From Alphaproteobacteria bacterium (GTDB taxonomy: Bacteria; Pseudomonadota; Alphaproteobacteria; UBA9219), in contig JABDAH010000011.1 in the NCBI GenBank assembly GCA_013289265.1, positions 1 to 44,715 of the forward strand: 44,715 nucleotides of DNA. The letters are read 5' to 3'. This document shows positions 37,716 to 38,915 of the stretch, piece after piece (position 1 is the stretch's first letter; the number at the start of each line of letters is the position of its first letter). The translations under genes were made by a program, and so were the position numbers. The notes below the pieces were generated by a model. The model worked only from the letters and a program-made list of their open reading frames with translations. It made no database searches and had not been told where the DNA came from.

Positions 37716-37874
37716 TTATCCCCACATAATCCAGCCGAGCAGTAACCCCATAAAAAGCCCAGAGAGGGAGACAAGGCCGTAGGCTAGGGCGATGCCGGAT
37801 TGGTCCCTTGTCCGGCTATGGCTTGGCAGCCGGACATAGGCAGTGCCGCAAGGCACGGCGGATGGTAGTGACAT
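37716..37874 (-). CDS. Small membrane protein, 52 aa
   Basis: A 52-codon gene. A polar N-terminal half (MSLPSAVPCGTAYVRLPSHS then RTRDQSG) is followed by one transmembrane helix reading IALAYGLVSLSGLFMGLLLG, ending WIMWG. AAGGGG lies 8 nt before the ATG, a strong ribosome binding site. It starts 9 bp after the stop of the ribbon-helix-helix gene and ends 67 bp before yhhQ on the same strand. The arrangement suggests co-expression with the regulator. The function is unknown, and I know of no recognised family. Confidence 0.6.
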   Translation of the reverse strand: MSLPSAVPCGTAYVRLPSHSRTRDQSGIALAYGLVSLSGLFMGLLLGWIMWG

Positions 37875-38390: not shown

Positions 38391-38401
38391 GGCTCATCTC
38401 C

Positions 38402-38460
38402 TATTAGTGTGTATGTTATTGCATATGCACTTATAGGTTGCAATGTAATACACACGTATA
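38402..38460. promoter_or_regulatory. Long imperfect inverted repeat, candidate operator of the RHH gene
   Basis: Two 22-bp arms, 38402-38423 and 38439-38460, share TGCAAT and ATACACAC in inverted orientation at the same spacing, with a 15-bp centre. A perfect palindrome TGCATATGCA (38420-38429) overlaps the left arm, and TATAGGTT is repeated at 38432 and 38457. On the minus strand the centre includes TATAAG as a possible -10 box. It lies just upstream of the RHH gene. Confidence 0.6.
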
Positions 38461-38505
38461 GGTTTGGCGAAAAGGTTTTTTACTTTCATTTTATTTAATT
38501 AAATC

Positions 38506-38526: not shown

Positions 38527-38558
38527 TATTGCCAAAAAGCGGTATTTACAAATATTAA

Positions 38559-38849
38559 CTACCTACAGTTGTATTCTTTCGTAGTAAAAGTTTTCAGGCT
38601 GAGGGCGTGAACCCGCTCTTTCAGTTCTTCTGCCAATAGATTGTAAATCAGCCTGTGTCTGGCAACGGCGCTCATATTTTCAAAACTGTCGCTGACCATC
38701 AGCATTGTAAAATGTGTTTCGCCCTTGGGGTCATGTCCGGCATGCCCGGCATGTTTTTTGGAATCGTCCTGTATTTCCAAATGGATAGGGTTCAGCGCTT
38801 TGGTCAGTTTGCTGCGCATGCGCTCGGCGTAAATATTTTTTTCAACCAT
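38559..38849 (-). CDS. BolA family protein
   Basis: A 96-residue BolA-like protein. The BolA domain includes AERMRSKLTKALNPIHLEIQDDS, then HFTMLMVSDSFENMSAVARHRLIYNLLAEELKERVHALSLKTF, with the conserved RHR-type segment (ARHRLIY) and the closing VHALSLKT typical of the family. An insert HAGHAGHDPKG is His-rich, plausibly near the metal or [2Fe-2S] ligand site used with monothiol glutaredoxins. The frame is open back to 39134, but ATG 38849 has an AGGGA ribosome binding site and gives the normal length. It is divergent from the J-domain gene at 38916, a pairing frequent in alphaproteobacteria. Confidence 0.93.
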   Translation of the reverse strand: MVEKNIYAERMRSKLTKALNPIHLEIQDDSKKHAGHAGHDPKGETHFTMLMVSDSFENMSAVARHRLIYNLLAEELKERVHALSLKTFTTKEYNCR

Positions 38850-38915
38850 ATTTTCCCTGCATAAAGCGGTTTCATGATAGAATAAGCGGCTATGCCTGAT
38901 GCTGGAGTTTAGAAC

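Follow-up and report, generated by a model that had tools for sequence, protein, structure and literature searches.

A candidate autoregulatory operator array upstream of an RHH_4 ribbon-helix-helix gene in an alphaproteobacterium

CopG, Arc, and MetJ are autoregulated ribbon-helix-helix (RHH) repressors with two-fold symmetric operator(s) over their own promoters. AmrZ, which belongs to a different RHH family from the protein treated here, shows a multi-site arrangement with complex formation at algD. AmrZ of Pseudomonas aeruginosa is described as binding the 18-bp amrZ1 site, consisting of two half-sites, as a dimer of dimers, and this site was used in amrZ repression assays (PMC3325190); further targets of AmrZ are pili, exopolysaccharide, and flagellar genes (PMC3946381). 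A literature search combining ribbon-helix-helix with RHH_4, PF13467, or Micavibrio found no paper. Among solved structures, the sole sequence relative of the present protein at E <0.001 is the uncharacterized BP1543 of Bordetella pertussis (PDB 3kk4, E 6.8e-6), which is also the best structural match with a Foldseek E of only 6.2e-3; its entry title names neither a DNA site nor a function.

Here we analyzed a 44,715-nt stretch of alphaproteobacterial DNA (the window), in which an RHH_4 gene is located behind bolA on the same strand, separated by a 168-nt intergenic region. An inverted repeat in this region is probably part of an autoregulatory operator array, with which the RHH_4 protein would repress its own promoter via several operators, perhaps with formation of a loop. 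From the sequence comparisons below, we give this reading a probability of about 0.75.

Anatomy of the repeat and the putative promoter

The first-pass annotation had named the downstream gene as an RHH gene, and its product indeed matched RHH_4 (PF13467) with 73.4 bits against a cut-off of 25 (E 1.6e-20). The AlphaFold2 model has two strands (residues 22-28 and 31-37) and four helices (39-52, 56-66, 73-88, and 91-96), so that the strand followed by two helices expected of RHH_4 is present in the predicted fold; confidence was high in blocks 21-80 (pLDDT 92-94) and low in the tail. Across 29 rows, R32, S34, and R36 of the strand never vary, which fits the constant half-site described below, and these three residues presumably face the DNA. 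A 52-aa ORF with a hydrophobic stretch (37716-37874, minus strand) starts 9 nt after the RHH stop codon, and the same-genus genome has a similar ORF of 50 aa behind its RHH gene. The genome also harbors a second, short RHH_4 protein (L001, G000:C12:31671-31853) in a 74-aa open frame.

The long inverted repeat that had been noted upstream of this gene is real. Its arms (38400-38423 and 38439-38462) are 24 nt each with a 15-nt gap and are 79% complementary (19/24 bases pair). When the 168-nt intergenic region was dinucleotide-shuffled 2000 times, 6 of the shuffles contained an equally good inverted repeat, and the score of the repeat was reached by 6 of 531 overlapping 168-nt segments of the whole 44.7 kb. 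Since these segments represent three places, this one included, the inverted repeat by itself is not extraordinary. The palindrome TGCATATGCA (38420-38429) and the repeated TATAGGTT were both found as annotated, the latter occurring twice as part of a 17-nt direct repeat (38423-38439 and 38448-38464, 82% identical). On the gene strand the copies read AACCTATACGTGTGTAT and, 25 nt further, AACCTATAAGTGCATAT, and the downstream arm reads CTCCTATTAGTGTGTAT on the other strand.

The array is therefore better read as three ~17-bp copies of one element, designated O1 to O3, than as the single 59-bp dyad of the first-pass annotation: O1 and O2 appear as direct repeats on the gene strand and O3 as an inverted copy. 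We rejected the giant dyad because its arms are copies of an element that is also found as a direct repeat and because other loci have single or direct copies without an outer dyad. A fourth copy, O4, lies farther upstream and doubles as bolA coding sequence. The distance between O1 and O2 is 25 bp in the window and 26-28 bp in relatives, that between O2 and O3 is ~30 bp, and that between O1 and O4 is 107-112 bp, or ~10.2-10.7 turns of 10.5 bp. These spacings do not fall cleanly on whole helical turns, which may weigh against a simple same-face or loop model.

Table 1. Positions of the RHH_4 gene, the candidate operators, and the putative promoter elements in the window.
Feature	Position	Strand	Basis
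RHH_4 gene, 168 aa	37884..38390	-	PF13467 match, AlphaFold2 model
O3, CCTATTAGTGTGTAT, inverted copy over Shine-Dalgarno, candidate half-operator	38400..38414	+	exact motif match; weak under palindromic PWM
O2, TGCAACCTATAAGTGCAT, central candidate operator over expected transcription start	38425..38442	-	11.7 bits with held-out PWM; seen in relatives
O1, CCAAACCTATACGTGTGTAT, upstream candidate operator in putative promoter spacer	38448..38467	-	8.6 bits with held-out PWM; exact motif 38448-38462
O4, ATACAACTGTAGGTAGTT, distal candidate operator, 107 bp upstream of O1 (centre to centre), over bolA stop	38557..38574	-	9.7 bits with held-out PWM; kept distance in relatives
Putative -35, TCGCCA (relatives often TTGATA or TTGCTA)	38465..38470	-	TTG position in anchored loci
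Putative -10, TACATT, 17-nt spacer, weak match	38442..38447	-	sequence inspection
bolA, upstream neighbour gene; last codons and stop overlap O4	38559..38855	-	PF01722, E 5.8e-31

A promoter scan listed no promoter at this place. We anchored 14 of the 23 loci of the window's family on a CGTGT of O1 near the promoter, leaving out L090 (CGTGT at -175) and the second CGTGTs at -228 in L065 and L068. In 9 of these 14 loci, TTG lies exactly 14 nt before the CGTGT, where the window has TCG. Given a 17-nt spacer from such a -35, the -10 would be TACATT and transcription would start within O2. The annotated TATAAG box is present; as a -10 it is not well spaced, and with this promoter placement it is probably the core of the operator at the centre of O2. 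A match to the SAH riboswitch at 38595-38680 (E 0.19, below the gathering cut-off) was taken as chance.

Recurrence of the site in relatives

Each of the 33 genomes of the order that were searched has a match to the RHH_4 gene, with only weak or partial matches in G009. Of 246 loci found, the best 80 make up the named loci, which come nearly all from alphaproteobacterial metagenome bins; among these best 80, 16 record titles name Micavibrio and 2 name Skermanella. The window and 79 of the 80 named loci formed a set of 80 upstream regions; L104, the remaining one of these 81 loci, was dropped because of too little upstream DNA. Start codons were set by rule, which is wrong in a few loci (e.g., L073), and family membership of the named loci was assigned by eye, with contigs matched to the genomes.

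Lack of the arms in close relatives had been named as refuting evidence, and the arms are in fact conserved there. When the 91-nt promoter stretch was compared with 59 relatives, E <0.001 was obtained in only two besides the own genome, namely the same-genus genome (77% identity over 84 bases) and G007 (89% over 34). In three further genera, loci could be aligned across both arms, with rows chosen by eye. In alignment A1, whose five whole-array loci from four genera were also picked by eye, CGTGT, GCAACC, GTGCA, and ACAC are invariant; alignment A2 was made without L019. Few loci retain O3, the downstream arm.

Palindrome-constrained expectation maximization (EM) on the 80 upstream regions gave an 18-bp palindrome with half-sites ACAACC/ACACC. 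Its likelihood was 346 (40 rounds) compared with 33-79 in 20 shuffled sets (25 rounds). After retraining, it was 288 for coding DNA from these loci and 185 for far-upstream DNA, so the EM likelihood alone cannot tell a transcription factor site from other conserved DNA. Unlike the likelihood, site counts do separate the upstream regions from the controls. With one fixed position weight matrix (PWM), which had been trained on the same upstream regions, sites of at least 9 bits occurred in 61 of the 80 upstream regions and in 1 of 80 coding regions; the other control regions gave 1/79 (-600 to -400), 11/79 (-400 to -200), and 1/80 (+300 to +500). One such site was found in 47 upstream regions, two in 11, and three in 3 (14 with two or three), and none in the remaining 19 of 80. 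A held-out PWM, trained on 57 loci with the window's family excluded, still found a site in 18 of the 23 family loci at a threshold of 9.0 bits (rounded), and the score of O2 was reached in 21 of 2000 shuffles. These counts (61/80 upstream regions and 18/23 held-out family loci) indicate that the reading of the gene product as an autoregulated RHH repressor with conserved sites at its own promoter is well supported by comparison.

Symmetry of the PWM was imposed; near-perfect single palindromes do occur, such as AGCAACCTATGGTTGCTT in L121, and the copies in the window are imperfect. O3 scored only ~1 bit under the palindromic PWM, and a half-site 15-19 nt from the ATG was significant in three of 14 loci (p 0.014, 0.002, and 0.003), with p 0.15 in the window; the half-site of L121 (p 0.027) was not counted for O3, being located 55 nt from the ATG. 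In L102, from another family of the order, four palindromic copies are present in ~120 bp above the RHH gene, centered at -186, -134, -104, and -82, the second with only 7.5 bits.

The motif search proposed in the first-pass annotation, both genome-wide and upstream of RHH_4 homologues, found that the sites recur at this gene with no excess elsewhere. Exact CCTATNNGTGYRTAT has three matches in the 1,493,070 available bases of the genome (63.55% complete), all within 38400-38462; the motif was derived from these three copies, and therefore only its absence elsewhere is informative. With up to two mismatches there were 43 matches compared with 46 for the reversed control in the same 1.49 Mb, and another pattern gave 263 compared with 254 in its control. 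The O2 core CAACCTATRRGTGYA has five exact matches in the 33 order genomes, all five upstream of the RHH_4 gene. Its one-mismatch matches numbered 17 (4 above the RHH_4 gene and 13 elsewhere), compared with 10 for the reversed control; as it was built from sites of the window's family, it says little on other families. A stricter palindrome pattern had one match in the 33 genomes and was uninformative, having been badly chosen. We rejected a wider regulon: searched with two patterns, the own genome gave no excess of sites beyond the RHH_4 gene, and neither did a search of 33 genomes with the O2 core. This is what autoregulation predicts.

The distal site O4

In the 14 anchored loci, a distal site of at least 8 bits (held-out PWM) was present in the band from -116 to -101 in 8, whereas no shuffle out of 500 gave more than 1 of 14; this band was chosen post hoc, after the sites had been seen, and the other 6 loci have no such site in it. 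When 15-nt bands were scanned upstream of O1, at most 1 of 14 loci had a site away from the distal place and up to 8 of 14 in bands overlapping it. With the PWM from all loci, the distal centers were located at -109 (two loci), -112 (two), -113 (five), -114 (one, weak), and -96 (one, off-place), and L068, L072, and L073 had no distal site at that place. The anchor itself has no palindromic-site score in L075 and L121. Thus, a distal operator candidate at a kept distance, as in loop-forming repressors, is found in 8 of 14 anchored family loci, spanning several genera.

The spacer DNA is mostly unalignable: only 2 of the 45 pairs among ten spacers were alignable at z >3. The distal site lies over the end of bolA in the window, G001, and G007, and for the remaining seven of ten listed loci with a distal site, inspection of 420 translated nt by eye gave no bolA reading. 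In other loci, a second apparent distal class located ~157 bp upstream of the proximal site was rejected as conserved bolA codons (reading HFKL..).

Possible mechanism, alternatives, and comparison with known repressors

We propose that RHH_4 dimers pair on the 18-bp two-fold symmetric site, giving a dimer of dimers per site as described for AmrZ at amrZ1 (PMC3325190). Binding would occur at O1 in the promoter spacer, at O2 in the -10 and start region, and more weakly at O3 over the Shine-Dalgarno sequence. Coverage of the spacer and start would repress the gene's own transcription and limit the level of its product. Tetramers bound at O4 may bridge to the promoter and form a loop, and cooperative binding to the array is possible. 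The self-repression suggested in the first-pass annotation is thus supported by comparison, in that the sites recur in relatives with no excess elsewhere, and the anatomy differs from the one it gave. A bolder version, that the protein is devoted to its own promoter throughout the order and loops to a distal operator that stays at its distance even though spacer and neighbour gene change, is tentative and rather unlikely as a whole.

The sites might instead belong to another regulator, e.g., the short RHH_4 paralog, with the RHH_4 gene merely its target. A second RHH_4 protein is available for this role here, two or more matches occur in 30 of the 33 order genomes, and either protein could bind as far as sequence comparison shows. 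However, if another regulator bound the sites, further targets should be visible, and no excess of sites was seen; the upstream region of the paralog itself has no site in this genome (best 4.7 bits). We consider this explanation improbable. Less probable still is an RNA hairpin, in which pairing of O1 with O3 in transcripts reading through from bolA would hide the RHH Shine-Dalgarno sequence. The RNA fold scores -19.6 kcal/mol (z -3.3), which 1 of 200 shuffles equalled. In the five-locus alignment, 89% of cells pair, a share reached in 8 of 500 shuffles; three pairs are changed on both sides (33/500), and the covariation score is 0.147 (13/500), all scored on a structure predicted from this same alignment, whose rows were picked by eye. 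This hairpin leaves the direct repeat O2 and the distal site O4 unexplained and needs the read-through, since the gene's own transcript would be without O1 if the putative -35 above O1 puts the start inside O2; moreover, only three of 14 loci have a significant O3 half-site close to the ATG.

RHH antitoxins are often autoregulated, and the gene could accordingly be the antitoxin of a toxin-antitoxin operon with the adjacent 52-aa hydrophobic ORF as toxin. The close placement of this ORF and its counterpart in the same-genus genome are in line with such an operon, but the ORF has no Pfam family match, and its single NCBIfam match scores 13.5 bits where the cut-off is 90. Inspection by eye revealed no similar ORF in 16 other loci checked; a similar ORF in 1 of 17 other loci in total falls short of the adjacent conserved toxin gene of a type II antitoxin. 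The match to the RHH_4 gene in every order genome searched also speaks against such an operon. We regard this explanation as very improbable.

Autoregulation by the RHH_4 protein through an operator array thus remains our preferred reading, and the analysis, with its controls, defines an 18-bp candidate operator for a protein matched in all 33 order genomes searched. Because the distal site keeps its distance, looping by an RHH protein can be tested directly. Like CopG, Arc, and MetJ, the present gene has candidate operator(s), modelled as two-fold symmetric, at its own promoter, where binding as a dimer of dimers is expected. It differs from them in its array, in which a distal copy keeps its distance, in its half-site sequence, and in being a chromosomal gene present throughout the order. 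The likeness to AmrZ lies in an RHH protein with an 18-bp site, here a candidate one; the half-sites are GGC five bp apart in AmrZ and ACAACC/ACACC here, and AmrZ has other target genes, whereas the sites analyzed here point to the RHH_4 gene's own promoter, with no further targets visible.
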